Source of the DNA: Mesocentrotus franciscanus
Lineage: Eukaryota > Echinodermata > Echinoidea > Camarodonta > Strongylocentrotidae
DNA length: 64,000 nt
Direction: 5' to 3'
NCBI GenBank assembly: GCA_037976565.1
Contig: CP137682.1
Coordinates: 25,611,298 to 25,675,297, forward strand
Both the position numbers and the translations under genes were made by a program. Positions 27,906 through 60,090 of the stretch are shown piece after piece (positions within the stretch are counted from its first letter, which is position 1; each line of letters begins with the position of its first letter). The notes below the pieces were generated by a model. The model did no database searches. It saw nothing but the letters and a program-made list of their open reading frames with translations, and was not told where the DNA came from.

Positions 27906-28350
27906 CCGTATATTTAGAATGTCATGAGAAAAAACCTACCCGTGATTGGCAGATCCAGGATTCGCTGGTCGGGGAAGGTGATGCACAATAAATAAAAATC
28001 AATGACAAAAACTGTAACAAGTATAAACAAAAAAAAATTACATTAACCTTGTTTTCCCCATGCAAACATTATCTTTTAATATGTTTAAATACATAAATTA
28101 AACTCTTAACTACTGAAATCGACAAAAATAACGACTTTACTCAGGTAATGGAGTGAGGCAACTTTCAACTGACTATTACCTGTATCACGGTCGTTCTCGA
28201 CACATATTTAGGCAAAACTGTTGGTAATAATCTATAAGGCCCGGGGCAAACTACACGATCTGACTAAGATCCGATTTCTGAAGAATTTGGAAGCATCTGA
28301 TGTGAAAATTCAAACTTGTAAAATCTAAATGATCGAGGATGTTAATAGCC
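27906..28350. other. 3' flank of C2, joining the A/B receptor array
   Basis: Matches the sequence downstream of C1 (a CTGGTCGGGG run, then ATCGACAAAAATAACGACTTTAC). No gene. The A/B composite unit begins near 28350. Confidence 0.5.
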
Positions 28351-29769
28351 ACATGATGAATAAATCGCAGAAGGATCGTATAGTGTGCGCTGGGAATAAG
28401 TAAAAAATGTTTGATGTACATGTTACAGGTTGTTTTATCTCCGATCTACACGGGTGATGGCTGATTTGTCACTATAAGAGCATCTAAAGATCTTGAAATA
28501 TTCTTTACGATTAGAAACTTTTCCCTATGCGCTTTACACCGCACAATGTGATTTTATGTCAAACATGATCGCAAAGGCTTCCGAAAAGAACAAAACAATT
28601 AGGGCAATTTCATTACCCCTGTGAACCACCCATTGTAACGTGAGAACATGACAATGACCTATTACGTTATCCAAACATAGGATATACAAAGTGTTATTGA
28701 CATTGCATTTGAGTTGATTTTGCGACAGCATTTGGGGATTGTCTTGTAACAATAATGAAACAAAATAATGAAATATGGTGATATTTTTCCAGGGCAGCCA
28801 TCATCAATCTTCACAAGGGCCTTGCAAGATCACCTATGGAATAAAGGAAACAAGTTATGATTTTCATTTAGCTATCTAGGCAAGCACCCTCGATTTTAAA
28901 TGCGGTGATTTTGATTTGTAAGATATACATGTATTTGCATTAGCCAATTTTTTTTTTTTTCATGGAAATAAAATCGCCCATTTTCATAACTTGGGGCTTA
29001 AAATGAGTTTTTGAGAGAATGTGTAATAGTTTTTTTTAATGCAAATGATAATCACGAATACTTAGTTATTGGATGTTAAAGTAAAAAAAAGTGTCACTTT
29101 ACATCCATTCTGGATTGATGAAGGATGTGATATGTATGGAAATCGGATCGGAAATAAAATATGCAAGTGGCACTAAAACGTTGTGGTAATAGGAAAAAAG
29201 AACTCTGGAAAAATTGTAAGGTTTTCGAGCCAACTGATCGGGTGAGCGAAAAGATGCTTCGATCAGACAAATCGCTCAATAAAAGGACATTGATGAAATT
29301 GATATAGGCCTTGATTATAAAAACCCACTTCCTATTTATCTATGGTGAGGAACTGAACAAAGGGTGACGAGCACATAACAAAATTTAAACTAAACTTATA
29401 GAAACAATGAAAGAATGAGCAAAAACAGAATCCAGGACATTTTGACTTGCAGAGGTAATGTGTGGTTCTTAGTAGACGAGGATCGTTGAGATAATGCATT
29501 AAACACGTTTTACAAGATAACGCTGTTCATCCTTGGTGATTATAAAAGTAGTCCCATTTAGACATCCCAAACACAATTTAAAAAAAAATCGTCGATATTA
29601 TGGCCGACCATGTACACTACTAGAAAAACCCATAAAAAAACCTTCGAATTTTGCTCATACCTACTTTTGGTGAGTACTGCGCATGGGGAACTCTTTGGTG
29701 CCCAGCATGCGTTAGCACGGAAGCGAGGAGAGTCACGTGCTAACGGTATCTTACCGAAGTTTGCATATA

Positions 29770-29885
29770 CACTGCAAGAATCGGTGAATCTTCGGGGTTG
29801 GATTTTTCGATTTCGACTATTCGCCGTTTTTGCCGGTGAAACACCGGAATGTGAGAAAATCAACGATTTTTTTGTTATTGCAGTG
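29770..29885. mobile_element. Small TA-flanked MITE in U1
   Basis: 116 bp with CACTGCAA/TTGCAGTG ends, each flanked by TA, as for Tc1/mariner-type elements. The same element sits at the homologous place in U2 (44227-44346), so it predates that duplication. Confidence 0.6.
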
Positions 29886-30199
29886 TAAATGCAGCTAGTC
29901 TAAACGGCTGACCATTGTATTTCATTGATGTGGAATCAATGATTACAGCTTGAAGGTATGATCTTCGTTATAAAGAAAGGGAAAAGACTGAAACACTTTC
30001 TGATAATCAAATTGAGGAAAAATAAGAGGATATTAGTAATGGCATAACCTAACAAGCATTGAATAAAAGGCCAATTCAATAATATTTCAAAGGTAAAACG
30101 TATCTATTTATATAGTTTTGCCACGCATGGTCAATTCTTGGTGTTATCCTTGACCGGGCGGCATCTTTATTCTACAAACGTCAGAAGGCGATTCAATGA

Positions 30200-30300
30200 T
30201 GCACAGAGAGAGAGAGACAGACAGAGAGAGAAAGATAGAGACAGGAGAGAATAATAGAAGAGAAGGATATGGAAGTAGATAAAAGAGAGGAAGGACAAGG
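30200..30300. repeat. GA-rich tract upstream of A1
   Basis: A GAGAGA low-complexity run in the conserved A-unit upstream region, with equivalents at about 44645-44700 and 55918-55965. The following stretch (GAACCATTCCATTATTGAAT, ACCCGAAAGGTCGACATTTC) is strongly conserved among the A copies and may hold the promoter. Confidence 0.6.
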
Positions 30301-30904
30301 AAACAGAAAGAGCACGAATGTTGCTTAAGAACCATTCCATTATTGAATTTCTTTGCTGCTCAGTCACGCTGCAAAATCTCTCGCTTCCCTGTTCAAAGGA
30401 GCGCCTTGATTGTTTTGTCATTTACCCGAAAGGTCGACATTTCAGGCAGAAATCTCACCACGACGTCGGCAGAATTAATTAAGAAGGAGTTACCAGCTTT
30501 ATTAAATCTATATTTTAACCTTGTTCCTATAAGTCAGGTAATATATAAATCACAGTATCCTTGTAAAGGACTGGAGTGACATTTTACTATCCTGGACTCA
30601 CCCGAAGCTGCTCGTTTTGTAGTCGTTTTGTAGTCTTACATAAAATGTAAACCACTTGACATCTACATTTTAGTAGCTGAGGTTGCCTGTTGATTCTATT
30701 ATCATGCTCACACGTTCCGCAACTCACCGGGAGCTAACAACCTTTCAAACCTTTCTGCTACAGCTGATTGATTTTTCATTTTATTAAAAAAAGGCCTCTC
30801 GAAGAAGTATATCCTAGGGACTCACCACTCTTACAAACATCCCTGTATAACTCGCACAGCAAAAAGCTGTTACCCAAACTTGAATATACATTACCAGCTT
30901 CAGG

Positions 30905-32125
30905 ATGGATGTGGGAAGTTTGGCCATCTTCTGTGTAATTTTCATCACCGGTTTGCCAGGGAATACTATCATCCTGGCAGCATATGCCATTAAACCGCAA
31001 AAGAAGAGCACGGACCTTTTGATTACAATCCAAGCCTTGGTAGATCTGATTGCTTGTATCACCCCTCAGCCTGAGATGATCAGTAGCGTGGCCATCTGCT
31101 GGATAACTCTTATTATCCGTCTCTCAACATCGCTTGGTTCTCTCTTCTTGACGTTCGTCATTGCTGTCGACAGGTATGTTACAGTCTGCAGACCTTTTGG
31201 TCGTCATCTGACGAAAACCAAAGCCGTTGTCCTTGCGATAGCAAGTCTGGCATTCTCCCTCCTCGTCAATCTTACCACACTTTGGTACTTCAAAGTCATA
31301 GACGTAAAATCGGCGGGGTGCATTTGGTCTACTGCCGCGTCTCCACTACAGATTTCTATGAATGTAGTCCAAACCGTCTTGTTCTTTGTTACGGTGGTCG
31401 TAATCATGTTTTCTTACACTAAGATATTCACATTTATACGTCGGCAAGCCCGGGTCAGATCCGAAATGGATGCCGGTCTTGCAAGCCATACCGGTGCCAG
31501 AACGGCTTCTGCCATGGGAACGATTTCTGAGTCTGTGACGGCATCTGGTAGAGTTTCCAAAAAGGCATGGAAAAATAACATTGCACCAACAGCAAACAGG
31601 CAGTCCTCCCTGATAGATGAAAGCAGCGGAGTTCAGAATCCGGGTTGTCTAGAAGTACCATCCTCTAGACCTGGTGGTGAACCTTCCAACTCTGGATGTA
31701 CGATCTGCAACTCTCCTGAAGGACACGTTGCCGAGAGAGATGGACCGTTTTCGGCAAGTATAGAGATATCTGCTACTCAAAGTTCTGCTGCAGCCGTTGG
31801 ACACCTGAGTCAGCCTGGAGAAAACAGCAGATGCAATAGACCTACCAGAAGGGTCCATGGCGACCGGACCACTAAAATGCTTCTTTGTATCACCGTACTC
31901 CTCATCATGTCCTGGATACCGTACGTCCTCATCTTTACTCTCCCTGCTCATGCTTACATCTACCTCGTGACAAGACTCACAAGCTATAAGGTTGTCTACT
32001 CAATCAGTCGTATCAGAGGCTTTAATCACATGATCAACGCCTTCGTCTACTGGGCCGTTAATCCTGTCTTCAGACAAGACGTCAAGCGAGTTTTCATCCG
32101 TCTTAGGAAGTTGACAAACCGATAA
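30905..32125 (+). CDS. Rhodopsin-class GPCR, single exon, receptor A1
   Basis: Intact 406-codon frame. Only a few residues precede TM1 (GLPGN, Asn20). TM2 carries Asp47. Cys65 before TM3 and Cys139 in loop 2 form the likely disulphide. DRY is at 89-91, TM4 about 106-128 and TM5 about 150-178. RRQARVRSEM starts a roughly 145-residue Ser/Thr/Pro-rich third loop (179-323). TM6 carries SWIPY (336-340) and TM7 carries NPVFR (386-390), with Phe for the NPxxY Tyr. The basic tail (RLRKLTNR) is short. The start is the first ATG of the frame and is conserved in A2 and A3. There are no N-terminal glycosylation sites or signal peptide. It is a class A heptahelical receptor, presumably G-protein coupled; ligand and expression cannot be read from sequence. 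Closest relative is A2 (45.35 kb), then A3. Confidence 0.93.
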   Translation: MDVGSLAIFCVIFITGLPGNTIILAAYAIKPQKKSTDLLITIQALVDLIACITPQPEMISSVAICWITLIIRLSTSLGSLFLTFVIAVDRYVTVCRPFGRHLTKTKAVVLAIASLAFSLLVNLTTLWYFKVIDVKSAGCIWSTAASPLQISMNVVQTVLFFVTVVVIMFSYTKIFTFIRRQARVRSEMDAGLASHTGARTASAMGTISESVTASGRVSKKAWKNNIAPTANRQSSLIDESSGVQNPGCLEVPSSRPGGEPSNSGCTICNSPEGHVAERDGPFSASIEISATQSSAAAVGHLSQPGENSRCNRPTRRVHGDRTTKMLLCITVLLIMSWIPYVLIFTLPAHAYIYLVTRLTSYKVVYSISRIRGFNHMINAFVYWAVNPVFRQDVKRVFIRLRKLTNR

Positions 32126-32215
32126 AGATCAAACAGGTTTGTTCTCTCCTTTCTCAAGTGATTGGGGAGCTTTTTGGCCCACAATTGAAGCTTTCTGGCT
32201 AATCGAAATAGAACA

Positions 32216-32668
32216 AAAATGATGTATTAATGCCCAGGCTACAACGAATATTAATAACAAGCAATGACTTTGTGTGATAAACCTTTTTAGTTTTTATCTT
32301 TGTCGTCAAAGTTTTTTTCTTAATAAGATCAGAAGTACGAGAAATGATGATTGACATAATAAAGAAACCTCTATAATTTGTTTCCAACCATACCGATATA
32401 GTTCTTCTGAATAAAACATAGCACATAACAAAAAGGATGTATTAATGCCTAGGCTGCAACGAAGATTAATATCAAGCAATGACTTTGGGTGATATAGCAA
32501 TTTCGGCTAAACAACCATAGTATTGATAATTAAAAGTGTTTATCTTTGCTGTTAAAGTTTTTTTCTTAATAAAATCAGAAGTATGAAAAATGATGATTGA
32601 CATAAGAAACCTCCATGAATTTTTTTCCAACCATACCGATATAGTTCTTCTGAATAAAACATAGCACA
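32216..32668. repeat. Tandem duplication in the A1 3' flank (about 217-bp unit)
   Basis: GATGTATTAATGCC starts both halves (32220 and 32437). Both end in CCATACCGATATAGTTCTTC TGAATAAAACATAGCACAT-type sequence, including an AATAAA. A2 and A3 have a single copy at the corresponding place (about 46660-46895 and 57925-58160). Confidence 0.8.
32358..32415 (+). promoter_or_regulatory. Candidate poly(A) signals for A1
   Basis: AATAAA occurs at 32358-32363 and 32410-32415, about 235-285 bp after the stop codon. The second is conserved in A2 and A3. Usage is inferred. Confidence 0.4.
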
Positions 32669-32936
32669 TGCCCTTTAAAATCTCTACAATTTCTTTCTCA
32701 GTGCTTTTACATGTCAAGGATTGGAGTATATTTAGAGAGCTATTCGTCATCGATGTTATTGTTTCTAGTTGTTCCTTCTGATGAAAAAAGTTCCAGATTT
32801 TAACAATGATAGATCACGAGTATGGAAAAGGCCGCCTCTCATTGTTGAAGGGGTCTATTGGCTGTAGCGCGATAACGTTGGATGTAAATACTGGTGGAAG
32901 ATCAGCCTTTTGCTGAAAATGTAAGTAAATAAAGTC

Positions 32937-33076
32937 TACTACTACTAATACTGCTACAACCCATACTACTAATACTACTATTCCACGATACTAGTACTTC
33001 TCCTCCTCCTCCTCTTCCTCATCCTACTAATACTACTACTACTATTACTACTACTACTACTACTACTACTGCCTCA

Positions 33077-33110
<34 letters not shown>

Positions 33111-33140
33111 CTACTATTACTACTACTCATGCTACTTCTA
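32937..33140. repeat. (CTA)n microsatellite, U1
   Basis: An interrupted CTA array with CTC/CTT blocks. It follows a stretch conserved in all A units (GGAAGATCAGCCTTTTGCTG then AAGTAAATAAAGT). Equivalents lie at about 47150-47480 (U2) and 58401-58552 (U3). Confidence 0.95.
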
Positions 33141-34440
33141 ATTCTACTACATTTGACATTTGATGTGTATATAATGTTATGTATATAATTATGACGTTAA
33201 AAAAAATTATGGTAGAAGTTGGTTCTAATGAAACATGTAAGATATTCTTTATAATCTGTACATAGTGCCATAGTAAAGTGCTGGTCAAACATCAAAGATA
33301 ACAATTACTATAACTTCAAAATCTGTTGCCTGAGGTAATCTTTATTTGAAGTATTTTATTTTGGATTCTGTTGTCGCTCACCATCTTATACACACTAATA
33401 TTCAGCGACGATATTCTTGAACTTGCATATTCAATACAATTTTAACTTCTTATTCAGGAGGTATGTTTTCAAGGAACCTCTGGACCCCAGAGCAAATATC
33501 GATGAACGCCTTACAAGGCATATATATATCACAAGCTAATATATCTCTAATATGATAATCACACAACATTATTCATGATATTTGCTTTTGATAATGTCAC
33601 AGTTCAATATAAAACAACTAGAGAGTGTTGAATAATTATTTTTAAAAAAAGAAAAGGAAGAATACCTGCCCATGTTCAAACTGTGTAAATCCGAATTGAT
33701 TTTGAAATAACACGTCTACCTAAACGACCCCTAACTCTAAATGCAGAGATAATTCCATCCTGGCTGAGTGGTTCGTAAACATAGTCATCTAGGAATAAAC
33801 ATTAATGTGCCCCTCCTCATGTACGAATTTCCCTTAAAATTCGAAGATGCAGCATTTTCACAAACATATTACTGTTATAAAAAATAAAGTTTTCAAGATA
33901 TTTGGTAATAATGGTATTAATTGTGTGTGAAAATAAACGTGGTATTGCATCCTTTAAAGGCAAATGTAGTATAAAGTTTTTGTCGTCTTCAATCTTTTAC
34001 CATGTAGAGATTCACAATTATTCTTTACTCATGTTTATTCTACATCTAAAATTACTCAGGAAATGAGGAATTACATAGAATTGAATACTTTATTATTTTC
34101 TATAAATAATTCAAACTTTACTTTAAAAAAACCTTAGAAACTCTTTCAAATATAACGTAGCAAAACCTCGGCGGTATTTTTATAACGACGTAAATCTTAA
34201 TACGGCTCGCATTTTTGTATTTTATAGCAAATAGCTCAGTGAATATTAAAGCGCAAGTCCTTTGTTGCGCGCAGTTGCAATTTATTTACACACGCGCACA
34301 CAAAAGCGCAGCGGCTTTTTTGCGGCGGTTTACCGCGCTATATCTGAACACGTCTTATGAATAATCTCCTGGGTCATGATGGAAAATAGCTTGTCATAAA
34401 ATCAATTGAAGTATACACTAAGTAGAACCTACCGTAGACA
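33141..34440. other. Conserved 3' part of the A unit, no gene
   Basis: Non-coding; aligns to about 47480-48730 in U2 and 58553-60065 in U3, with scattered indels. It contains AGGAGGTATGTTTTCAAGG and GACGTAAATCTTAATACGG; the latter is the empty site of the U3 MITE. Confidence 0.6.
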
Positions 34441-34454
34441 ATATTGTGCCAAGA

Positions 34455-34455
34455 G

Positions 34456-36145: not shown

Positions 36146-36733
36146 TATACCTCTCTTAAGAATGTTGAATAAATCTAGTCATCTGATTGGCCCGCAAAAA
36201 ATGAAATATGCCCGTTGCCCCTGGTAACGGGCGTTGCTAAATTTTGCTGCGATCCCTATTGTTTTACGTGTAAAAACTTTTTTTTGTGCGAGCGCGGATA
36301 CCATACAGTGTGTAGATAGATGAATACAAAATTAAAATTAAAAACAAATAAAATAAAAAAAATGAGAGATATAATCACGTGACGTAAAGTAATTTGGCGA
36401 CAATAGTCACAACTGACTAATTGCCATTGAATCAAAACAGAAGAAGAAGAAGAAGTTCGATTCCCGAATGATCGTGACATTCAGACAACTCTCCAGCAAA
36501 GATTAACAGACAGTGTCTCAATTTTGTTTGTAGTGTTTTATCCAATCTTTATTTAAGAAAAGGATAAGGCAAAAATTCTTTGTAGATTATTGTGTGAAAT
36601 CGGTATATACATGATATATGGACTGCTTTAATATTTGAGGCATAGCTGTTTCTATAGTGGCTCTCGGGGACGTTACATCCTGATATGACCCCTTGAGCCT
36701 ATAGAAACATCATATCTAATTTTATAGTAGTAT
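36146..36733 (+). mobile_element. Dispersed foldback-type element, copy 3
   Basis: Starts ATATACCTCTCTTAAG, contains GTGCGAGCGCGGATACCATA and ACAGTGTCTCA, and ends TAGTAG before TATTCAGGAGCG. U2 at 49336-49365 reads TATCGATTATTCACGAGC with no insert, giving precise boundaries. An A-rich stretch at about 36312-36455 is extra relative to copies 1 and 2. Confidence 0.75.
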
Positions 36734-37016
36734 TCAGGAGCGTTAAAAACAAAAAGTACCATAGCGCTTCCTAAAAAGTACCAGATTGTGAAGAAAAACA
36801 AAAAACTCATAAAATGGTATGTACATGTATGTTATAAAAATGCTTTTGTTGATCTTTTAATTTTTTGATTCTCACCGATTTTTTTCTCTCGTTGATTTGC
36901 CTGTCTGCGACTACTTTCACTGAAATAAATAAAGGGCCAATTACATTAGAAATTATTTCTTTTATGAACTGCATTTAATAATTTGGATCTTTGTTTGTAT
37001 TTCTCTCTTTCGTTAC

Positions 37017-38062
37017 GAAGAACATCATCTATAAGTTCACGGAAGCGAGGGCTCAGGATGTTCAACACCCTCATTTTATTAACCAAAGCTCTTGGCGCCC
37101 AAGTATTATCCCCTACTGCCCACTTTATTTCAGATCAGTCTGTAGATTTGGGAAAGCGGCAACTTATCATTAACTGCTTTTATTTCATTGGATCTTTGTT
37201 TGTCTTTCTTTCTTTCGTTATAAAGACCAACGATCGGATTTGTTTTCTTCTTTACATTATTCAACATTCTCCCTAGTGAAATACGTTAAAAGGAGAAGAG
37301 AAATTAGGAGAGAAAGTAAGGGGTATAGAGAGAGAGAGAGAGAGGAGGTGTTAGAGCACGAGTTATGTAAAATAGCAAAATAAATACGAATAAAAAAACG
37401 AATTAATTGATAAACCTTGGCATTGTGTTGAAGTAAGGCACTTTTCTCATGCATTGTTGCGTTTAAATTAGCAAAAATAGGCATAGCAAGGATTCAAGGA
37501 AACACATACCTTGGCCCAGGAACATTTAATGGAGTAAGAGATGAGCTCTTCGTGTCTTGTCTGACAAGGAGTATAGTTAGAAGAAACCCAGAATAAAAAA
37601 ACGTTTTTTTCGTTCCCTTTTTTTAAATTTTTTTATTGTTACACATTCCATAAAAATAACAGTTTACGTATATATATTATTAAAGGTCAGCAAGATAAAG
37701 CATAATGACAAAAAAAAACAACGATGGCAGTATATAATCAGTAACGTGAAATATGAGGAACCTATTAAAAAAAGCAATGCTTGTATAATATAGGTTCCCA
37801 TATATCAATGATTGTATAACAAATTATAATGCAATGAAGAGAGACGAATCCGGGAAATATAATTGATATATAATGAATACAAGTATGTGGTTACATAATA
37901 GTAGTGGCTCTGATTTTTTATTTTTTTTTAAGTAAAGCAATCAATAGGTCGCAGATGCTTTCAGAGTGCAGCCCGATGTTGCTTTGCGTGGTATTTTTTG
38001 CTGACAGGAAAGATGAAAACTGGGAAGTCCTATCATTTTTATTTTAATTGCTATTTGGTAAT
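37017..38062 (+). repeat. Orphan B-type receptor flanks (3' flank then 5' flank) without a receptor
   Basis: 37034-37175 matches the 3' flank of B1/B2 (TCACGGAAGCGAGGGCTCAG, CAAGTATTATCCCCTACTGC). 37180-38062 then matches the 5' flank of B1/B2 (GGATCTTTGTTTGTCTTTC, CGATGTTGCTTTGCGTG), ending at ATTTGGTAATC just short of where the receptor ATG region would start. No receptor follows; the homology stops at 38062. Confidence 0.8.
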
Positions 38063-38750
38063 CTAGACTTTAGCCTCTGATACTAAAAAGCGTTTGGAAA
38101 GTTGCGAAATATGGTTTTTAAAGCTGATATTCTAGGACAATAAATGTCCATTAATTTGGTACCGACGGCAAGCCTATGTTATTTCAAAGTTGTTCATTTA
38201 AATAGCATATCACACAAATCTTCTAGCTACTGGATATCCTCAATTGAAATGTCGAAAAATAGCCTCCTCTCTTTGCCTAGAAAATTAGTCACAGAGCTGG
38301 TCCACTATTTGTGACGTAACAACCGGGGACGAGTATATTCACGTACCCGGATGTTCCATAGAAAAACATGTTCAGAGAGATAAGAATTTCTGCTATTTAG
38401 TTTCAAAGTTTAGTTTCATAAATCTATGTAGAATTCTTCACATTCCCCTAATATTTCATAGTGTTAATATCAATTCCCTTTTTCAGAATTATGACAAAAA
38501 CTAGCCAACGATGCGCTATTAGTCGATATTTTCACCATGTAATTTTGTTTGAGTGTGTTGAATTTGGTGAGATTGTTTTCGTGTGCTCGGTAAAGTAGAT
38601 CCGGTCGTTTGGCTTCGTTCGAGTCTTTCTCGCGTTCGGTCTAGCTAGGTCGCTTTATACATACACGTTCGATTCACTTATACGTACGGTACATATTATA
38701 TAATTATATCAATTGATAATGGCCGGAGAGTTTGACCAGAACGATCTTTT

Positions 38751-39833
38751 ATGGATCTTGAAGAGTTTATGGAGGAAGATGATGAAAGTAATTAAGGAGA
38801 AAGGGACGAGAGTGCAGACAAGGATGATGGAAGTTGGGAGGACGCAAGTACAAGTGGGGGAGGAGACGATATCGAAGTTCCTGCAGCCGGGGCCGGGGGA
38901 GTAGCGGCAGTAGCACCTCAGGTAATGATCCCACAGCCTTATTTCCAAGAACCTTTGCCAAGAGACGAGGGTGGTGTGGCAGACGACGGGGATGCTCCTC
39001 GTCAGGATGTTGATCCTCAACGTTTATTTAACAATAATTGGTAAGTTCAAAACCTGTCTGTAGCGGTGTATTCTTATTTCTTTTTGTTTTGTTTTGATCT
39101 GTCAGCTGACAGTTAGAATCTAGACTCAGAGATGCATTTAACGTTACTCGTTAGATTTATCATTTACTCTTATGATCATCAAGATGCCGCTTATGATTGA
39201 TGGGGTGGGGGGGGGGTAATCTAAACTCAAACTCAAAAATACACGCTGTTTTTGGAGCAGCTAAAAAGTTATTTTATGGATTATTCTATTTTTTAAAATA
39301 ACAACTGGGTTCTGCATATTCTGAAGTTAAATTGGTGAGAAATTTATGACGGACAAATGCAGTAGTTGGTCAAGCTAGTAAGTCAACATTTTCAAGTCGA
39401 TATCGATGCTGGTGTCAAACTTTGTTCATCAAAATCTAAGTATATAACAGAGAATAAAGGGAAATTTATAAAAAAATTGACAGAATTCAATGATATATAT
39501 TTCTAAATGTTTTGTGTAAGTACGTAGATGTAGATGAAAAAGAGGAAAAAAAATAAGATGCTAATTTTCTTTCTCCTTTTGTTTCGATTCATTCAGGTGC
39601 CTGTGTGGTGGCCACTGCCATGTAGAGCCATCATTTACCGCAGAAGACTGCATATGCTGCTAGGAGATCCATGAAGTCTCTTCAGAGGCGGATGCCCTTG
39701 GTAGCCAGTGTCTGACTACCCTTGAAGCATTTGAAGCGGCTATTATTAACCCCATCTCTTTATACATTGGATGGATGGAGTACACTGAAAGGTGGCGGCA
39801 AGCATCCAAAGCCTTTGGTGATCGGAATAATGA
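38751..39833 (+). pseudogene. Broken gene for a P2X7 intracellular-domain-like protein
   Basis: Two exons can be read. Exon 1 (frame from ATG 38751 to donor 39041) gives an acidic leader, an in-frame TAA at 38793, then an Ala/Gly/Asp-rich stretch ending FNNNW. Exon 2 (39597-39833, acceptor AG at 39595-39596) reads CLCGGHC, then EDCICC, an in-frame TAG at 39661, EI, and QCLTTLEAFEAAIINPISL. The Cys pattern and the CC-x-EI...F-A..NP order match the zinc-binding cytoplasmic (ballast) domain of P2X7, which also occurs in invertebrates and fish in proteins without a channel. No P2X channel segment precedes it, and the last part of the domain is not found before 41 kb. Two stops and missing 3' exons argue for a pseudogene. 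Alternatively the true start is downstream of 38793, but the TAG would remain. Confidence 0.6.
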
Positions 39834-40239
39834 GTAAGTACACATGAGCAGTGAGAATTTTACTCCTGCAGTACTGCACTCTGTTTTTAAATTTTTCTTT
39901 CAAGTTAGAATGTGGCAATGAAACATTTCTGATGTCAATGGGATTATTCAATTTTTGGAAGAATTTGCCAGAAAATCAGTCCTAAATGTAAAATACATGT
40001 ACTTGATGGATGTTTACAATGTTTTGTATTTGCTTCAAAATTACTCCTTAGTTAAAAAATCTATACCTTATAAAATTATTAATACATGTAGCTTGGTTTA
40101 TTATTTTCATTCCAAACACGACACTACTTTTTTCCCAAATTTTGAACATTCCCTCCCCCTTTTTTGCACACTGTGACAAAGTGTGAGACAAATTAAAGAA
40201 CAATTTAATGATTTCAATGATCATGGTAATTTTTTTGTT

Positions 40240-41060: not shown

Positions 41061-41068
41061 CGAAAGTC

Positions 41069-47149: not shown

Positions 47150-47376
47150 TCTACTACTACTAATGCTGCTACAACCCATACTACTAATACTACTATTCCA
47201 CGATAGTAGTACTTCTCCTCCTCTTTCTCTTCCTCATCCTACTAATACTACTACTAAGATTACTACTACTACTACTTCTACTATTACTACTACTCATCCT
47301 ACTTCTAATTCTACTACTTCAACTCTTACTATTAGTATTACTACTACAGACTATACTACGACTACTTCTTCTATTA

Positions 47377-47417
<41 letters not shown>

Positions 47418-47480
47418 TACTACATGTATTACTACTACTACTTCGACTTCTCCTACTTCCACTACTAATACTGCATGTAC
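47150..47480. repeat. (CTA)n microsatellite, U2
   Basis: An interrupted CTA/TAC array at the same position after A2 as 32937-33140 after A1. Confidence 0.95.
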
Positions 47481-49085: not shown

Positions 49086-50236
49086 ATGATAACATGGTAT
49101 ACTCTACACGCCATCTCACCTATGTAAATGTGAGATTAATGGTTTTCATTAAATGTGATTTTAAGCCAAATGCTCGGCATTTCTTTATACAAACACTACA
49201 CAACTGAGTGACAAATAAATTTAGGGTCATTTTAAGCGAGTTTCTTTTTCAAGATTAGTTTTAATGATAATAATGATAGAGGTTTAAATAATGGTAGTGA
49301 TAATAATCATAATAATATGAATATAACTAATAATATCGATTATTCACGAGCATTAAACACAAAAAGTACCATAGCGCTTTCTAAGTAACAGATTGTGTAG
49401 ATAAACATAAAACTCATAAAATTGGTCAATAATATTATATTACTGGGCAAGCTGAGAGATGAAGTATGTTTTGGAGATTCTTTTGTTGATCTTCTGATTT
49501 TTTCCATTGATTCGCCTGTCTGCGTCCACTTTTAATCAAATAAATAAAGTACCAACTACATAAGAAATTATTTCTTTTATGAACTGGTTTTATTTCATTG
49601 GATCTTTGTTTGTCTTTCTTTCTTTCGTGACGTTGAGCAACGATCGGAATTTTTTCTTTAACATTATTCAACATTCTCCCTATTGAAATATGTTAAAAGG
49701 AGAAGAGAAAGTAAGGGTAGAGAGAGAGAGAGGGGGTTAAAGCACGAGTTATGCAAAAAAGCAGAAGAAATACGAAGAAAAAAAACGAATTTATTGATAA
49801 ACCTTGGCATTGTGTAAGGCACTTTGCTCATGCAATGTGCTGCATTTAAAATTGGCAAAATTTGATTGGATTGAAGGAAACACATACCATGGCCCAGGAA
49901 AATGTAATTGAGTAAGGATGAGCTCTTTGTGATATACATCCTTTGTCTGACAAGGAGTATAACTAGGAAAAACCCAGGAAGAAAAAAAAATCAATTTCGT
50001 TCCTTTTTGATCTTTAGTGGCTCTGAGTCTTTATTTTTTTTTAAGTAAAGAAATGAATAGGTCGTAAATGCTTTCAGAGTGCAGAGCGATGTTGCTTTGC
50101 GTGGTATTTTTTGCTGACAGAAAATATGAAAACCAGGAAGTCCTATCATTTTTATTTTAATTGCTATCTGGTAATCATCATCATTCCAGTGTATTTGTTG
50201 CATGTCTCATAGAAGTGTTAGTTAAGTACGAAAGTC

Positions 50237-51389
50237 ATGACGGAGGTAGGGAGTAACGTAATCTTCTGGGTTTTTTAAATTCCTTACTGGATTACCAGGA
50301 AACACCATTATATTGGCCGCCTTTGCCATCAAGGCAAAAAAGAAGAGTACTGACATTTTACTCATAATCCAGGCCGTGGTAGATCTGATCGCTTGTATCA
50401 TCCCGCAGACAGATATGGTGAAGGTGCTCCATCCTGCTTGATAAGCATTATCGTCCGATTCTTCCTATCTATGGCCTCTCTATTTCTAACATTCGCCATT
50501 GCTGTGGACAGGTATTTTACAGTCTGCAGACCATTTGGTCGTCATATGACCAAACCCCAAGCTGTAGTATTCGCAACAGCATGCATATCATTATCTTTCG
50601 TTCTCAACGTACCTACAATTTGGAATGTTTCAGTCGTATACACCGAATCAACTGGCTGCATATTGTCTTTCTTCAAATCGCTTCTTGGGATGTTGATGAA
50701 GCTATTACAGCTAGCGTCGTTCTTTGTTGCTGCTGCCATGAGTATGTACTCGTACCTAAAAGTATACGGCGTGATACGCAGGCAAACCCGCGTTAGATCC
50801 GAAATGAGTGCTGGCGGTACAAGGAATGCTGCAAACGCAACGTCTGTGTTGACAACCGTTTCCGCTTCTGTTCCAGGACACCAAAAAGCATTGAATGGCT
50901 ACGTGGCACATTCAGCGACATCAGATAGGCGGTCAACCCTGATGTCCAACAACGGTGGAGTACATGATTTGGACTATCTACAAATACCCTCCTCTGGACG
51001 TGATAAACTCTTCAATGTTGGAAGTAGTGTTGAGACATCTGTCAACAATGACCACACGCCGTCATCAACGAATACCTTTCAGAACCAATTTCAAGGTAGC
51101 ACTGACAACTCTCGACCTCAGAGGAGAATCCAGGGTGACAAAACCTCTATTAAAGATGCTTCTTGTTATTACCGTTTTTCTCATCCTGTCCTGGTTACCT
51201 TACATTCTAATCTCCTCTCTCCCGACCGAAGCTTACATCTACATTGTGACAAAGATCACACATGAACACGTGTTATTGCTCTTTAGCCTCCAAGGCTTTA
51301 ATAACATGATCAACGCCTTCGTGTACTGGGCCGTGAACCCTCTCTTCAGGCAAGACGTTAAGCAAGTTTTTATCCGTCTTGAACGGTAA
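50237..51389 (+). pseudogene. GPCR pseudogene B2
   Basis: Aligns end to end with B1 from ATG 50237 to TAA 51387-51389, but carries at least three lesions. An altered T-run gives TAA at 50276-50278 (codon 14). A one-base loss near 50421-50424 shifts the frame after TM2. A four-base gain near 51144-51155 shifts it again just before TM6. The C-terminal tail is also shortened (RLER instead of RLRNLSKR). Between lesions the receptor motifs persist: DRYFTVCRPFGR, a RRQTRVRSEM third-loop start, and NPLFR. It cannot make a full receptor. Confidence 0.9.
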
Positions 51390-52641
51390 ACGTACGAATA
51401 CAAAGGGGTGGGAGGAATACACGCCATCTTAATTATCAACGAAGAACATCTTCTGAGTTCACGGAAGTGAGGGCTCAGGATGCTCAACACTCTCATTTTA
51501 TTAACCAAACCTCTTGGAGCCCAAGTATCACCCCCTACTGCCTATTTTATTTCAGATAAGTCTATAGATTTGGGAAACGGCAAAGAGAAATTAACATTAA
51601 TTCTATATTGGTTGATTTTGCGACAGCATTTTGGGATTGTCTTGTAATAATAATGAAACAAAATAATGAAATATGGTGATATTTTTCCAGGGCAGCCGCA
51701 TCACCATCATCAATCTTCACAAGGGCCTTGCTAGATCATCTATGGAATAAAGGAAAGTTATGATTTTCATTGAGCTATCTAGGCAAGCACCCTCGATTTG
51801 AAATGCAGTGATTTTGATTTGTAAAATATTCATGTATTTGCTATTTTTATTTTCATGGAAATAAAATCTCCAACTTTCATAACTTGGGGCTTAAAATGAG
51901 TTTTGAGAAAATGTGTAGTATTTTTTTTAATGCAAATGTTAATCACGAATACTTAGTTATTGGATGTTAAAATAAAATAAAAAGTGTCACTTTAGATCCA
52001 TTCTAGATTGATGGAGGACGTGCTTTGTATGTAAATTGGATCGGAAATAAAATATGCAAACGGCACTACATGTAATACGTTGTGGTAGTAGGAAGAAAAG
52101 AACTCTGGAAAAATTGTAAGGTTTTCGAGCCAACTGATCGGGTGAGCGAAAAGATGCTTAAGGCAAATCGCTTCATAAAAGGACATTGATGAAATTGATA
52201 TAGGCCTAGATTAAAAAAAAAGCACTTTATATTTATCTAGGGTGAGGAACTTAAAAAGCAGCTGGGTGAAGGGCACATAACAAAATTTAAACTAATTTAT
52301 AGAAACAATGACAGAATGAACAAAAACAGAATCCAGGACCTTTGGATTTGCAGAGGTTATTTGTGGTTCTAGGAGACGAGGATCGTTGAGATAATGCATT
52401 AAACACGTTTAACAAGATAACGCCTGTTCATCCTTGGTGATATCAAAAGTAGGCAAATTTACACATCCGAAACCCAATTTTGAAAAATCGTCGATATTAT
52501 TGCCGACCATGTACACTACTGGTAAAACCTATAAAAAACCTTCGAAGTTTGCTCATACCTACTTTTGGTGAGTAGTGCGCATGGGGAACTCTTTGGTGCC
52601 CAGCATGCGTTAGCACGGAAGCGAGGAGAGTCACGTGCTAA

Positions 52642-53170
52642 CATGGCTGATCGTCAACAAAACGGAGTTAAGTCTCTTGTCAACTCTGTTTGTTGCTACG
52701 GCAGGCAGCCAGTGAAAACGAACACGTTCAATCAAATTATGGAAATGCAAGCATTGCCATTGCTTTAAACAACCAGAACTTTGTTATTCCTGGCTCATTT
52801 TTCCTGATTGAGGTGTCATATGAAAGGGCAGAAATTGAACTTTCTAGAAATGACTTTTGGGTTTCCTCTCTTCAAATTGTTTTTAATCGCTCATGCATGA
52901 AATATGCGTCATATAAGTTGCATTAAATGAAAGAGAAGGATCTAAGCTTTACAAATATGTGTCATTCATTAATTATAATTGCGATTAAGTTATGATAAAA
53001 CATCGATAATTCTCGGTTTCGTTTTTTTCTGGGACGCACTGTAAACAGAATCACCCCTTTTTGACAATAACACATATGAAATATATTCGTTACTAAACAT
53101 TATACAATACACAAATCAAGACAACAAACATACATACAAACAAACTTATAAAATATGTCTTGAATTCAAA
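52642..53170. other. Non-homologous insert in U3, left part
   Basis: Replaces the part of the A unit that holds the small MITE in U1 and U2. A short frame opens with ATG at 52643 but ends after about 40 codons and is not recognised. The rest is AT-rich. Confidence 0.4.
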
Positions 53171-55150
53171 TGAGAATTGCAATTTAACTAAAAGAACTTT
53201 CCTTATACCTACGTTTAAATACATATACACAAGCAGAATTCTGTTTGTAATGAGGATGAGTGTTCCACAGAAACGGTCCTTGGAAAATAATTGTTTTTTG
53301 GTTTAGTACTGTACGAGTCAATGGCAAATGAAAATGTTGAGCATTTCTAGTATTATAACTATGAATATTACAGTTTAATATAAACAATTTGGAAATGGAA
53401 TCAGGAAGAAGATTGTGACGACATAAATACATAAAAACACCTACTTGTAATAAATATACATTCCTATATTGCAACATCCTTAATGAGTAAAATATAGGAG
53501 TAGTATGGGCAAGAAAAGAAGAACGATTAATAATTCTTATTGCACGTTTTTGTGATTTAAACAATCTATCTTGATGAATTAAAGCATCATTGTCCCAGAC
53601 AATAATAGCATAATGCAAGTAAGGGTACACAATTGCAAAGTATATCATTTTGAGAACACTTTTAAGTAGATATTTCAATCTGAACATGATACCAATACTT
53701 CTAGACAATTTGTTGCAGATGTCACCAATATGATTAGACCAAGAGAGGTTATCATCAATAATAACATCCAAGAACTTTGCTGAAGAAACTCTCTGAATAT
53801 CTAGATTACCAAGTTTGATTATTATTGAATCTTTATTTAGTTTCTTTTGGTACAAATCATTAAATTTTTTTTTCATTGATGGAAAGTTTATTAGCGTAAC
53901 ACCACCGAACAATCAATCTGATCTCGATATTAAATGTAGTTTCAAGTGTATGTTTGTTTTTGTGTGAAAGGAATAAACTGGTGTCATCTGCAAACAGAAT
54001 ACATTTCAAAATGTTTGAAGCATGAAAAATGTCACTTGTATACAAAATAAATAAAAGTGGTCCAAGAATGGAACTTTTGTTACTCCACATCTAATAAGCT
54101 GTAATTGTAATTTGTTTTCATTTAATGTGAAAAATTATTTTGATTTGATAAATAACTTTTAAATAATTTCAATGTTATACCCTGATTCTATACATATACA
54201 ATTTCTCCAGCAAAATACTATGATCAAGAGTGTCAAACGCTTTTGTAAGATCAAGGAATAAGGCAATTGTTGTTTCTTCATTGCACTTCCCACTTTATGA
54301 ACAAAATATATCAGAGCTGAAGTTAACTGTCCTGCTCTAAATCCATACTGGCTATTGTTTATGATATTGCACTTTGTGATAAACTTTAAAAGTCCGGTAT
54401 ATATACACCTTTCAACGTTCTTGGAAAAAACAGGTAATACAGAAATTGGACGATAATTAGACATCATTCCTGGAAAACCACTTTTAAAAATGGGTGTAAC
54501 TCGAGCTAACTTTTTAACAATGTAGGAAACTCTCCTCATTTAAGGCATTGGTTGAATATTTCACTGAGATGTTCACTTATTTTTAAATGTATATTCCGTT
54601 TTATTACTTCGATATCCATGTCATCATAACCTGTACTAGAATAAGGCTTAAGTTTGTCTACAATATCTATAATTTCTTTACTGGTAATTGGTTTAAAAAT
54701 GCAGTTCGATCATTTTGAATAACATAATTTTAAAAAGCATTATTGCACAAAGAAAAGAAAGGTTCAAGTTATGACCAATGTTTACAAAATGTTCATTCAA
54801 TATATTACAAATTTCCATGTCAGTTTTTTTCTTCTTCATTTCATCGAATAGATTTAATAGCAGATTTCTTTGTCTGCTTACCAATAGCCTGACTGATAAC
54901 ATTCTATGTTTTTTCATGTTCTCTTTAATAGTCTGAAATTTGTTTCCATAATACGCTCTTTTCGCACTTTTAAAAAATCATATTCGTTACTTTATTACGA
55001 CATTTTAGACATTTTCTCTATATACAGTAGGATTTTCCAGATATAGCTTATATGATCTGTTTTTTCTTTTTACTTAACTTACGAATATCATTTGTAAACC
55101 AAGGTTTGTCCTTACGATTTTTTAAAGATATAAGTTCAATAGGAAAACAA
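53170..55150 (-). mobile_element. Degenerate LINE (APE-type non-LTR retrotransposon), 5'-truncated
   Basis: Minus-strand frames give reverse-transcriptase blocks in order. KPWFTNDIRKLSKKK lies at about 55050-55130 and a NEHFVNIGHNL linker in 54693-54917. PIFKSG...NYRPISVLPVFSK and YGFRAG lie in 54159-54539, and GPLLFILY...FADDT (catalytic block) in 53860-54090. The C-terminal part (LSWSNHIGDICNKLSRSIG, YPYLHYAIIVWDN) is in 53184-53912. Frames are interrupted several times, so it is inactive. The motifs fit the Jockey/CR1/Rex-like group; I cannot fix the clade. No endonuclease is present. Confidence 0.88.
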
Positions 55151-55304
55151 ATTTTATACGCATCCACGCATTTTCTGGAGAAATCATCGTAACTATGATC
55201 AGTATTATTTTCATTGAGATTCTATAGTTGTAATTCCAACAAATGATGTTTACATAACGCAAGGATAGTTTATGATTGAAAGATTTTAGGAGGTATTGTG
55301 TGTA

Positions 55305-55492
55305 CAGAGAAGCGAAGAACGAATCAGTAAAAAACAACAATATAGGTTCGAATACCAGGCAAGAGAGCAGCGACAGCGAAGATCAACGTCAATCAATTTC
55401 AGAGAAGCGAAGAACGAATCAGTGAACAACAACGACTGGTTCGAATGCCAGGCAAGTGAACAGCGACAGCGAAGATCAATGTCAATCAATGT
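55305..55492. repeat. Two tandem copies of a roughly 95-bp sequence
   Basis: CAGAGAAGCGAAGAACGAAT begins both copies (55305 and 55400). Each runs through GGTTCGAAT.CCAGGCAAG and CAGCGACAGCGAAGATCAA. A 76-codon frame across them reads as a repeated Glu/Arg/Gln-rich peptide. Coding status is doubtful. Confidence 0.8.
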
Positions 55493-56599
55493 CCATAACG
55501 AAAGCAGTACACATGAAATGGAGTAAACGGGACTCAACAAAATTTACCTACAAAATCACAGGTTGCTTCAAACGAATGTCAATCAAGTTTCAACGTTTAT
55601 TTCAATTATTGCTCCAAAATGTGCGGCAGAGTAATCCACAGATACAAATTTACATGTTCGTGTAAAAAGTTTGTCAAAAAAGAAAAAAATAAATCTGTTT
55701 TCGATGCACAAAGTGTGGTGGTTGTATTCTCTCTCTCTCCTTCGTTTTAGTACTGGCATCACATAAAAAGCATAAGCATAAAAGGTCAATTCAATAATAT
55801 TTCAAAGATAAAGTGTATTTATTTATATAGTTTTGCTATACATGGCCAATTGTCGGTATTATTCTTGACCGGGCGGCATCCTTATTCTACAAACGTCAGA
55901 AGGCGATTCAATGATGCAGATAGAGAGAGAGAGACAGAGAGAGAGACAGATAGAGACAGAAGATAATAGAAGAGAAGGAGATGAAAATACATAAAAGAGA
56001 GGAAGGAGAATGAAAAAGAAAGAGCACGAAAGTTGCTGAAGAACCATTCCATTATTGAATTTTTTAGCGGTATAGTCACGCTGCAAAATATCTTACTTCC
56101 CTGTTCAAAGGAGCGCCTTAATTTTTTGTCATTTACCCGAAAGGTCGACATTTCAGGCAGAATCTCACCACGACGTCAGCAGAATTAATTAAGAAGGAGT
56201 TGCCGGATTCATTAAATTGTTATTTTAACCTTGTTCCAAAAAGCCAGGTAATATATACATCACGGTATCCATGTACATGACTGGAGTGACATTTTACTAT
56301 TCTGAACTCACCCGAAGTTGGTCGTTTTGTAGTCTCACATGAATTGTGAACCAATGGACATCTAAATTTCAGTAGCTGAGTTTGCCTGGTGATATTATTT
56401 TCATGCTCACACGTACTCAACTCACAGGAGCTAAAAAACCTTTCAAACCTTTCTGCTACAACAGATTGATTTTGCATTTTATTAAAAAAAGGCCTCTCGA
56501 AGAAGTATATCCCAGGAACTCACCATTCTTACAAACATCCCTGTATAACTCGCACAGCAAAAAGCTGTTACCCAAACTTGTATAGACATTACCAGCTTC

Positions 56600-57823
56600 A
56601 TGATGGATGTGGGAAGTTTGGCCATCTTTTGTGTAATGTTAATCACCGGTTTGCCAGGGAATACCATCATCCTGGCAGCATATGCCATTAAACCGCAAAA
56701 GAAGAGCACGGACCTTTTGATTATAATCCAAGCCTTGGTAGATCTGATTGCTTGTATTATCCCTCAGCCTGAGATGATCAGTAGCGTGGCCATCTGCTGG
56801 ATAACTCTTATTATCCGTCTCTCAACACCGCTTGGTTCTCTCTTTTTGACGTTCGTCATTGCTGTCGACAGGTATGTTACAGTCTGCAGACCTTTCGGAC
56901 GTCATCTGACGAAAACCCAAGCCGTTGTCATTGCGGCAGCAAGTCTGGTATTCTCCCTCCTCGTCAATCTTACCACACTTTGGTACTTCAAAGTCATAGA
57001 CGTAAAATCGGCGGGGTGCATCTGGTCTACTGCCGCGTCTCCACTACAGATTTCTATGAATGTAGTCCAAACCGTCTTGTTCTTTGTTACGGTGGTCGTA
57101 ATCATGTTTTCTTACACTAAGATATTCACATTTATACGTCGGCAAGCCCGGGTCAGATCCGAAATGGATGCCGGTCTTGCAAGCCATACCGGTACCAGAA
57201 CGACTTCTGCCATGGGAACGATTTCTGAGTCTGTGACGGCATCTGGTAGAGTTTCCAGAAAGGCATGGGAAAATAACATTGCACCAACAGCAAACAGGCT
57301 GTCCTCCCTGATGGATGAAAGCTGCGGAGTTCAGAATCCGGGTTGTCTAGAAGTACCATCCTCTAGACCTTGTGGTGAACCTTCCAACTCTGGATGTACG
57401 ATCTCCCACCCTCCTGAAGGACACGTTGCCGAGAGGAATGGACCGTTTTCGGCAAGTATGGAGATATCTGCTACTCAAAGTTCTGATGCAGCCGTTGGAC
57501 ACCTGAGTCAGCCTGGAGAAAACAGCGGATACAATAGACCTACCAGAAGGGTACATGGTGACCGGACCACTAAAATGCTTCTTTGTATCACCGTACTCCT
57601 CATCATGTCCTGGATACCGTACGTCCTCATCTTTACTCTCCCAGCTCATGTTTACATCTACCTCGTGACAAGAATCATAAGCTATAAGGTTGTCTACTCA
57701 ATCACTCGTATCAGAGGCTTTAATCACATGATCAACGCCTTCGTCTACTGGGCCGTTAATCCTGTCTTCAGACAAGACGTCAAGCAAGTTTTCATCCGTC
57801 TCAGGAAGTTGACAAACCGATAA
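56600..57823 (+). CDS. Rhodopsin-class GPCR, single exon, receptor A3
   Basis: Intact 407-codon frame. It has two adjacent Met codons (56600 and 56603); the second aligns with the A1 start, so 56603 may be used. Motifs match A1: GLPGN in TM1, Asp in TM2, paired Cys before TM3 and in loop 2, DRY, RRQARVRSEM, a long Ser/Thr/Pro-rich third loop, SWIPY in TM6, NPVFR in TM7, and a basic RLRKLTNR end. It differs from A1 by more substitutions than A2 does, for example KTQAVVIAAASLVF in TM4 and Lys to Gln before VFIRL. It is an older branch of the A lineage. The upstream region is disrupted by the 52.64-55.78 kb insert, but the roughly 0.8 kb immediately 5' is conserved. Confidence 0.93.
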   Translation: MMDVGSLAIFCVMLITGLPGNTIILAAYAIKPQKKSTDLLIIIQALVDLIACIIPQPEMISSVAICWITLIIRLSTPLGSLFLTFVIAVDRYVTVCRPFGRHLTKTQAVVIAAASLVFSLLVNLTTLWYFKVIDVKSAGCIWSTAASPLQISMNVVQTVLFFVTVVVIMFSYTKIFTFIRRQARVRSEMDAGLASHTGTRTTSAMGTISESVTASGRVSRKAWENNIAPTANRLSSLMDESCGVQNPGCLEVPSSRPCGEPSNSGCTISHPPEGHVAERNGPFSASMEISATQSSDAAVGHLSQPGENSGYNRPTRRVHGDRTTKMLLCITVLLIMSWIPYVLIFTLPAHVYIYLVTRIISYKVVYSITRIRGFNHMINAFVYWAVNPVFRQDVKQVFIRLRKLTNR

Positions 57824-58438
57824 ATATTAAAAAAAGTTTATTCTCTCCTTCCTCGAGACAGTGATGGGGGACCTTTTTGGCCGACAGTTGAGGCTTTCTG
57901 GATAATCGAAATAGAACAAAAAAGAATGTATGAATGCCTAGGCTACAACGAAGATTAATATCAAGCAATTACTTTGGGTGATAAAGCAATTTAGGCTCAA
58001 CAACCATGGTATTGATAATTAAAAGTGTACAAGTGTTTATCTTTGCTGTTAAAGTTTTTTCTTAGTAAAATCAGAAGTACGAGAAATGATGGTTGACATA
58101 AGAAACCTCCATGAATTTTTTCCAACCATACCGATATAGTTCTTCTGAATAAAACATAGCACATGCCCTTTAGAATCTCTACAATTTCTTTCTCATGTTT
58201 AGAGAGCTATTCGTCATCGATGTTATTGTTTCTAGTTGTTCCTTCTGATGACAAAAGTTCCAGATTTTTACAATGAGAGATCACGAGTATGGAAAAGGCC
58301 GCCTCTCATTGTTGAAGGGGTTATTGGCTGTAGCGGGATAACGTTGAATGTAAATACTGGTGGAAGATCAGCCTTGTGCTGAAAATGTAAGTAAATAAAG
58401 TCGACTACTATTAGTACTATAAATACATGTACTTAATA

Positions 58439-58476
<38 letters not shown>

Positions 58477-58486
58477 TTACTACATG

Positions 58487-58519
<33 letters not shown>

Positions 58520-59562
58520 ATGTACTATTTCTCCTACTTCCACTACTAATACTGCATGTACGACATTTGATGTATATATAATGTTATGTATATATGACGA
58601 TAAAAAAAATATGGGAGAAACTTGTAAGATCTTCTTTATAAGCTGTACATAGTGCCATAGGAAAGTACTGGTCAAACATCAAAGATAACAATTACTATAA
58701 CTTCAAAATCTGTCTCCTGAGGTAAAATGTATTTGAAGTATATTTTTGTGCATTTTGTTGTCGCTCACCATCTTATACAAACTAATATTCGGCGACGATA
58801 TTCTTGAACTTGCATATTCAAAACATTTTCAACTTTCTTTTCAGGAGGTATGTTTCCAAGGAACCTCATGACCCCGGGCAAATGTCAATTAACACCTTAC
58901 AAGGCATATATATATATATTATAAAGTATTATACCTGTAATATGATAATCACACAGCATTATTCATGATATTTGCTTTTGATAAGATAATGTCACAGTTC
59001 AATATACAACAAACTAGAGAGTGGGGAATAATTACCACAAAAAGGAAGAAGGCCTGCCCATGTTCAAATTGTGTAAATCCGATTTGGTTTGGAAATAACA
59101 CGTCTACCTAAACAACCCCTAACTCTAATTGCAGAGATAATTCCATCCTGTTTGAGTGGTTCGTACATATTTATCTAGGAATACACATAAATGCGCCCTT
59201 CCTCATGTACGACTTTCCCTTAAAATTCTAAGATGGAGCATTTTTAGAAACATATTACTGTAATAAAAAAATAAGGCATTCAAGATATTTTTGTCAATAG
59301 TGGTATCAAATGTATGTGAAAATAAACATGTTATTACAGCCTTCAGAGATAATTGTAGTACAGAGTGTTGTCGCTTGTAATATTTTAACAGGTAGAGATT
59401 CACAATTATTCTCTACTGATGTATATTCTACATCTAGAATTACTCAGGAATCGAGGCATTACATAGAATTGAATATTTTTTAAAATTGTATTGTGGTTAG
59501 TGGAAACTCAAGTTCAGATGTGACGCAGCAAACCCTCGGCGTTTGTATGACGACGTAAATCT
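57824..59562 (+). other. A3 3' flank, no gene
   Basis: Parallel to 32126-34200 and 46570-48515. It contains one copy of the poly(A)-bearing segment that is doubled after A1 (AATAAA at about 58149) and the CTA array 58401-58552. Short frames here are artefacts. Confidence 0.6.
58401..58552. repeat. (CTA)n microsatellite, U3
   Basis: Third instance of the A-unit CTA array, shorter and interrupted by TACATG. Confidence 0.95.
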
Positions 59563-59566
59563 TTAA

Positions 59567-59965
59567 GGGGAATTCCACCCTGATATTAAATTGGTTTTAA
59601 TAGAAACAAACAAAATAGAGAAACAATTCAGTGAAAGTTTGAGAAAAATCGGAAAGCAAGTAAGAAAGTTATGAATCTGTCAAAATCATGAAAATCACAA
59701 AGAAAATATATCTTTTGATCAAAATAGAATTTAATGACATTTCTTGCATTCAACAAAGGATAAAATGTGAGGGGTGACAGCATATTTAGAGACCGCGTTG
59801 CCAATTAGACTCACAGATTTGAAGTATTTTATGAAAAGTTATGGATTTTAAAAAATCCATAACTTTCTTATTTATTGTCCGTTTTTTTTCAAATTTTCAC
59901 TGATCTGTTCTTCTCATTTGTCTCCTTATATTAAAACAAACTTATTATCAGGGTGGAATTCCCCT
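59567..59965. mobile_element. TTAA-site MITE inserted in U3
   Basis: About 399 bp with inverted ends GGGGAATTCCACCCTGATA and TATCAGGGTGGAATTCCCC. TTAA lies on the left (59563-59566) and right (59966-59969), with one extra T at the right edge. U1 and U2 read GACGTAAA(T/G)C(T/G)TAATACGGCTC at this place with no insert. An internal AAGTTATGGATTTT / AAAATCCATAACTT hairpin is at 59834-59868. Confidence 0.85.
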
Positions 59966-60059
59966 TTAATACGGCTCACATTTATGAATGTTATAGGACA
60001 TAGCTCAGTGAATACGCGCAAGTCCTTTGTTTCGCGCTGTTGCTATTTATTTACACTCA

Positions 60060-60090
60060 CACTTACACAGACACACAACACACACACAAA
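60060..60090. repeat. (CA)n tract at the end of U3 homology
   Basis: ACACACAACACACACACA-type sequence immediately before the duplicated MITE interior. Confidence 0.8.

Follow-up and report, generated by a model that had tools for sequence, protein, structure and literature searches.

Alternating tandem array of class A receptors in Mesocentrotus franciscanus with probable gene conversion among its A copies

Introduction

Clustered receptor and immune genes of echinoderms include the surreal-GPCRs (GPCR, G-protein-coupled receptor) of Strongylocentrotus purpuratus (Raible et al. 2006, as cited in PMC5442662, PMC7042368 and PMC10855541), the olfactory-like clusters of the crown-of-thorns starfish (PMC5442662) and the Sp185/333 (SpTransformer) clusters of S. 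purpuratus (PMC3091723). The locus compared with them is an array of five class A receptor genes, two of type B alternating with three of type A, in the sea urchin Mesocentrotus franciscanus (contig CP137682.1 of assembly GCA_037976565.1, positions 25,611,298 to 25,675,297). The whole stretch analysed, hereafter the window, has 64,000 bases, 0 N and 36% G+C.

Surreal-GPCRs have in common with this array that they are echinoid, rhodopsin-type, expanded in a lineage-specific manner and clustered, and PMC10855541 and PMC7042368 report their clusters from pedicellariae and tube feet. The LxxxD signature at transmembrane segment 2 (TM2) described for echinoderm OR-like clades (PMC7042368) was absent here, residue 43 being Q in 19/20 aligned rows. 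The array appears close in kind to the sea urchin surreal clusters, of which it is a candidate member. The crown-of-thorns clusters are likewise tandem class A receptors of an echinoderm, but they comprise 12 genes that point both ways and span 140 kb (PMC5442662); the five genes here all point one way and span 32 kb. Sp185/333 proteins are unrelated to these receptors; their genes likewise lie in tandem segmental duplications, are more alike than their outer flanks and have GA and 3-base microsatellites in constant positions nearby, but include almost no pseudogenes (PMC3091723), whereas 2/5 members of the present array were broken. No prior report joining surreal-GPCRs or echinoderm receptor arrays with gene conversion was found in the literature searched, which covered few subscription journals. 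The array described below was confirmed as one of a known kind, with the caveat that its apparent youth has to be read with conversion in mind.

Results

Array layout and reading frames

Comparison of the window with itself (self-BLAST) gave three collinear blocks in direct order over about 28.4-60.1 kb. They carried five receptors, all on the + strand and within about 32 kb, in the order A1-B1-A2-B2-A3 (ORF, open reading frame):

30905..32125, + strand: A1, intact, 406 aa; ORF; 7tm_1 E 1.8e-21; 88% to S. purpuratus XP_800101.1
41069..42244, + strand: B1, intact, 391 aa; ORF; 7tm_1 E 7.7e-21; 84% to the relative protein P0011
45350..46569, + strand: A2, 1-base deletion at codon 32; remaining ORF 45520-46569
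50237..51386 (end approximate), + strand: B2, pseudogene; tblastn and alignment
56600..57823, + strand: A3, intact, 407 aa; ORF; 7tm_1 E 2.9e-20

The block matches were 28826-32281 with 43295-46725 (93.1%), 30033-32281 with 55747-57985 (92.2%), 44485-47309 with 55747-58550 (89.3%), 40361-42468 with 49579-51613 (86.5%) and 28709-29744 with 51608-52642 (89.0%), and since all five had E = 0, chance was ruled out. A first-pass annotation of the window had proposed an alternating A-B-A-B-A tandem array with alignable flanks at 28350..60065; the flanks were indeed collinear, and weak short matches at the left (28362-28490 with 42628-42754, 87.7%) and right edges (59966-60056 with 34197-34291, 85.3%) placed the limits at 28362 and 60056, in support of the outer limits proposed.

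The reading frames of A1, B1 and A3 were open from ATG to stop. In the alignment A2 was one base short in an AAAA run at codon 32, because of which its open part begins only at 45520; it is either a pseudogene or the product of a sequencing error. B2 had three frame-breaking indels (+4, -1, +4) and an altered C-terminus. Coding sequences differed at 16/1220 aligned bases between A1 and A2 and at 91/1145 between B1 and B2. Self-BLAST blocks and lesion alignments thus agreed with the earlier proposals of near-identical A1 and A2, of close B1 and B2, and of a two-gene module (A and B) that was copied in tandem and had a mixed fate, three receptors intact and two broken.

Divergence of genes and flanks

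Divergence of the A block outside coding ranged by segment over 0.032-0.136 for A1-A2, 0.069-0.202 for A1-A3 and 0.095-0.169 for A2-A3, and divergence of A coding sequence was 0.013, 0.036 and 0.038 for the same pairs. Silent-site divergence (Ks) was 0.014, 0.042 and 0.035, respectively. Four-fold sites differed less than flanks in A1-A2 (2/207 vs 190/2598; p = 8e-5), A1-A3 (6/196 vs 245/2280; p = 2e-4) and A2-A3 (6/197 vs 250/2243; p = 9e-5), with p-values of 1e-4 to 5e-4 once flank columns at most 5 or 10 bases from a gap were removed. As silent sites were low too, selection at the protein level is alone insufficient to explain the likeness of the A genes. B1-B2, as internal control, differed at 16/162 four-fold sites and 107/874 flank sites (p = 0.43; 0.78 and 0.88 with the two gap margins).

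Youth of the array, as judged by how little A1 and A2 differ, was not supported in that form, and gene conversion is the better reading of their likeness: flanks were several-fold more diverged than A1-A2 silent sites, and B1-B2 silent sites matched the flanks. An explanation by recent origin of the entire array alone was rejected on flank divergence. B genes keep pace with the flanks of their own modules and A genes fall behind them, so that some of the youthful look seems to be due to conversion.

Silent differences between A3 and the other A copies were nearly nil in the middle of the gene:

31205..31804, + strand: candidate conversion tract of A3 with A1/A2, A1 codons 101-300

Over these codons A3 had 2/150 silent differences from A1 and 0/150 from A2 (p = 2e-5 and 5e-8 against flanks), the codon bounds having been drawn from 100-codon bins inspected first. 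Silent sites of this stretch are not intrinsically frozen, as Ks of A1-B1 was 1.48 and 0.92 in its two bins.

Mosaic history of the A block

The closest copy changed along the block. In the B-downstream segment 57 sites joined copies 1 and 3 and 31 joined copies 1 and 2; in the A-upstream segment 57 sites joined copies 1 and 2 and 8 joined copies 1 and 3; and within 32427-32935, 15 sites joined copies 1 and 3 and 8 joined copies 1 and 2. The switch between the B-downstream and A-upstream segments had p = 3e-11, and heterogeneity over 7 segments had p of about 1e-11, the sites being linked. We read such switching as patchy conversion, and unequal crossing-over could also contribute. A permutation test on the longest run of agreement (p = 0.0012) selected for A1-A2:

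30883..31251, + strand: candidate conversion tract A1-A2, longest agreement run, 19 variable sites

GA repeats lay about 0.65 kb upstream of each A gene (30203-30258, 44648-44698, 55917-55960), and CTA-type repeats about 0.6-0.8 kb downstream (32936-33150, 47239-47472, 58439-58553). Microsatellites bound the high likeness of Sp185/333 genes (PMC3091723). As edges of converted tracts they were tried and rejected here, with a partial fit for A1-A2 (divergence 0.085 outside and 0.032 inside the GA repeat) and no fit for A1-A3 (0.128 and 0.118).

Selection and loop 3

Positive selection over the whole A gene was not supported, the ratio of replacement (Ka) to silent divergence among A copies being 0.82-1.09 (binomial p = 0.59, 1.0 and 0.77). 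The transmembrane core looks constrained, with Ka of 0.023 below Ks of 0.051 in A1-A3. Loop 3 had more replacements (Ka about 0.06), with silent and replacement differences of 0 vs 15 in A2-A3 (p = 0.030), 2 vs 16 in A1-A3 (p = 0.27) and 2 vs 7 in A1-A2 (p = 1.0); with p < 0.05 in 1/3 pairs, the excess is suggestive only. Over codons 101-300, A2-A3 had 20 replacements alongside its 0 silent differences. In strongylocentrotids, GPCR activity is listed among the categories enriched for positive selection, with 15/45 genes tested (PMC5521101).

Family identity and relatives

Besides the array, the window held receptor sequence of a third type, C:

21201..22514, - strand: C1, class A receptor of 437 aa, intact and single-exon; distant family member; 7tm_1 E 2.6e-21
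27442..27830, + strand: C-type pseudogene fragment, decayed; tblastn pieces vs C1 residues 157-236 (81%) and 329-379

The fragment is opposite in orientation to C1, and self-BLAST linked two stretches, 27446-27681 and 27155-27407, with the region of C1.

Pfam 7tm_1 matched 6/7 ORFs scanned (A1, A3, B1, C1 and the leftover A2 and B2 ORFs) at 43-77 bits, above the cut-off of 30.5 bits, which supports the earlier assignment to rhodopsin-type (class A) receptors. The same annotation had called them intronless: their coding regions were single-exon, open from ATG to stop in the intact copies of this tandem cluster, and there may be an intron in the 5' untranslated region. An in-frame stop lay 18-54 bases upstream of the ATG in A1, A2, A3 and B1, and 120 bases upstream in C1.

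A1 and A3 proteins were 93% identical and A and B proteins 49%, and C1 was 31-32% identical to both. At this sequence distance A and B are old paralogs. For A1 a seven-helix fold was predicted on a model of medium quality (mean pLDDT, the predicted local distance difference test score, of 63; helices mostly 68-90; loop 197-318 < 50; loop 3 not resolved), and the top 50 listed PDB matches of this model in Foldseek were all class A receptors, 11-16% identical. The best sequence matches among solved structures were GPR84 and the succinate receptor (E 3e-7 to 2e-6). A ligand pointer from structure was rejected, the model being medium and the fold matches generic to class A. The automatic names of S. 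purpuratus and Lytechinus relatives, Gastrin/CCK-B-like and TAAR1-like, have the class A fold in common with these genes but rest on remote likeness.

N1.50, D2.50, R3.50, Y5.58, W6.48 and P6.50 (numbering assigned by us) were identical in 20/20 aligned rows. The NPxxY motif of TM7 is usual in class A receptors and not required for membership; it was replaced by NAxxY or NFxxF, P7.50 (A1 residue 379) having become A, V or F in 19/20 rows, with the Patiria row alone keeping P. None of the 20 rows had proline at position 5.50. As R3.50, W6.48 and P6.50 were kept and P7.50 was lost, the receptors probably signal through a TM7 switch of altered form. Judging by their family and the A1 model, they would be G-protein-coupled, the N-terminus being very short and the third intracellular loop long.

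The protein search with A1 gave 19 matches, in S. purpuratus (up to 88%), Lytechinus variegatus (66%) and L. pictus (51%) among others. The named rows fitted an expansion specific to echinoids: those of at least 51% were all from Strongylocentrotus or Lytechinus, and two named matches were non-echinoid (Patiria, 26%; a bivalve, 23%). The matches point to an echinoid near Strongylocentrotus as the source. B1 gave 15 matches and C1 gave 1. In a tree of 26 rows A1, A2 and A3 formed one clade (99/99), separate from the S. purpuratus A proteins, and B1 and B2 formed their own (95/92). Two relative proteins, the A-like P0006 and the B-like P0011, had contigs of equal listed length (26,678 bases), taken to be a single contig, and A and B were therefore probably neighbours before the present copies arose. 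Two more pairs of unlike family members (among P0013, P0014, P0015 and P0017) seemingly share contigs (33,736 and 14,887 bases); these could be a further two-gene unit in duplicate, or a single such unit in two alleles.

Module edges and spacers

The module unit was B-downstream - A - A-downstream - B-upstream - B. Its edges and spacers included:

28362..29744, + strand: block 1 left edge, copy of B-downstream DNA with no B gene ahead
36712..38063, + strand: B-upstream copy without receptor; self-BLAST; promoter-side region
52643..55746, strand not assigned: B2-A3 spacer, 3.1 kb, unmatched elsewhere in the window, between the B2 downstream and A3 upstream regions
59513..60056, + strand: block 3 right edge, last two short A-downstream matches (59513-59559, 59966-60056)

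The receptor-less B-upstream copy lay 2.2 kb ahead of B1's own B-upstream DNA, and a hidden B gene in 36712-41068 was rejected, with no tblastn match to A1, A3, B1 or C1 as queries. On module history the tandem A+B unit stood, but a simple repeat of one module did not, as the closest copies switched and B-flank pieces without a receptor occurred both ahead of B1 and at the left edge. Tblastn found no B gene after A3 within the window, and likeness stopped at 60056; the array may once have had more units. The spacer contained an ORF (53184-53876, - strand, 230 aa) with no Pfam match. By eye we take this ORF to resemble the end of a reverse transcriptase of a non-LTR (long terminal repeat) retrotransposon. 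Two direct repeats of 191 bases, 100% identical (59744-59934 and 60091-60281), bracketed the A-downstream scrap at 59966-60056, and several diverged tandem-like repeats, 77-80% alike, occupied the right end of the window (60686-63997).

Discussion

Module homology, lesions, an excess of silent-site identity in A and not in B, and switching of the nearest copy were observed directly, and they are probably best explained by older tandem A+B modules whose A genes were later homogenised in patches by gene conversion, two members then losing frame. A single-exon class A cluster would have arisen by tandem duplication of the module, the modules not being very young. Conversion between neighbouring A genes would then have overwritten the coding region of A1/A2 plus some upstream DNA, and, in A3, the central part of the coding sequence, with flanks and B genes meanwhile going on diverging; 2/5 array members would afterwards have lost their reading frame. 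We infer conversion, rather than repeated unequal crossing-over, as the cause.

Several points weigh against this explanation. Outside codons 101-300, A1-A3 and A2-A3 each had 10/144 silent differences, which is flank-like (p = 0.16 and 0.13). The p-values are optimistic, because bounds were post hoc, sites are linked and pairs share sequences, and the direct four-fold test of A against B was weaker (p = 0.013 and 0.008). The longest-run test was not significant for A1-A3 (p = 0.51), and all that it selected for A2-A3 was 10 bases of the 3' flank (p = 0.015). A conversion-like pattern could also come from short-read polishing where copies are nearly identical. The upstream flank of A1-A2 had diverged by just 3.2%, so that the likeness of these two genes possibly comes in part from a later duplication of a smaller piece.

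Taken further, this last point becomes a history of stepwise duplications of differing age and size, in which a recent copying of A with a piece of upstream DNA made A1/A2 on older A+B modules, with no need of conversion between them. The low upstream divergence agrees with it, as does A1-A2 being the closest pair across most of the A block, but the likeness tails off to either side with no sharp boundary (0.085; 0.060-0.136), collinear B-downstream and A-downstream DNA extends beyond the low-divergence stretch, and the mid-coding stretch in common with A3 is left unexplained; we consider such a history unlikely. Less probable still is an artefact of assembly, in which haplotypes or repeated reads were placed in tandem or polishing blended the copies. 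Heterozygosity is high in sea urchin genomes and the sole lesion of A2 is one base in an A run, both of which would suit an artefact, but A is present three times, most flank segments have 6-19 indels per kb, B1 and B2 differ in lesions, each block has unlike insertions, and A and B share a contig in a relative. Purifying selection that includes silent sites and holds A coding sequence alike without conversion is very improbable, since apart from the transmembrane core, where Ka is below Ks, it meets a whole-gene Ka/Ks of 0.82-1.09 among A copies, A-B silent sites of the same codons that are saturated or nearly so, B silent sites evolving at the flank rate, and most replacements in the stretch with the fewest silent changes.

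With patchy conversion among the A genes as the preferred explanation, a tentative and rather doubtful extension is that these genes cycle, conversion resetting the region from TM4 to loop 3 and selection then fixing replacements, chiefly in intracellular loop 3. If such a cycle were true, homogenising and diversifying in turn would retune receptor coupling or regulation while the ligand-binding core stays shared.

Kinship of type with the surreal-GPCR clusters suggests a chemosensory role, and the array is probably sensory. Near-identical neighbours in receptor arrays are often taken as fresh duplicates. If part of that likeness is conversion, echinoderm receptor expansions dated by coding divergence alone come out too recent. 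If the loop-3 pattern were true in sister species as well, a single stretch of a few hundred bases in a receptor of chemosensory type would undergo both conversion and diversification.

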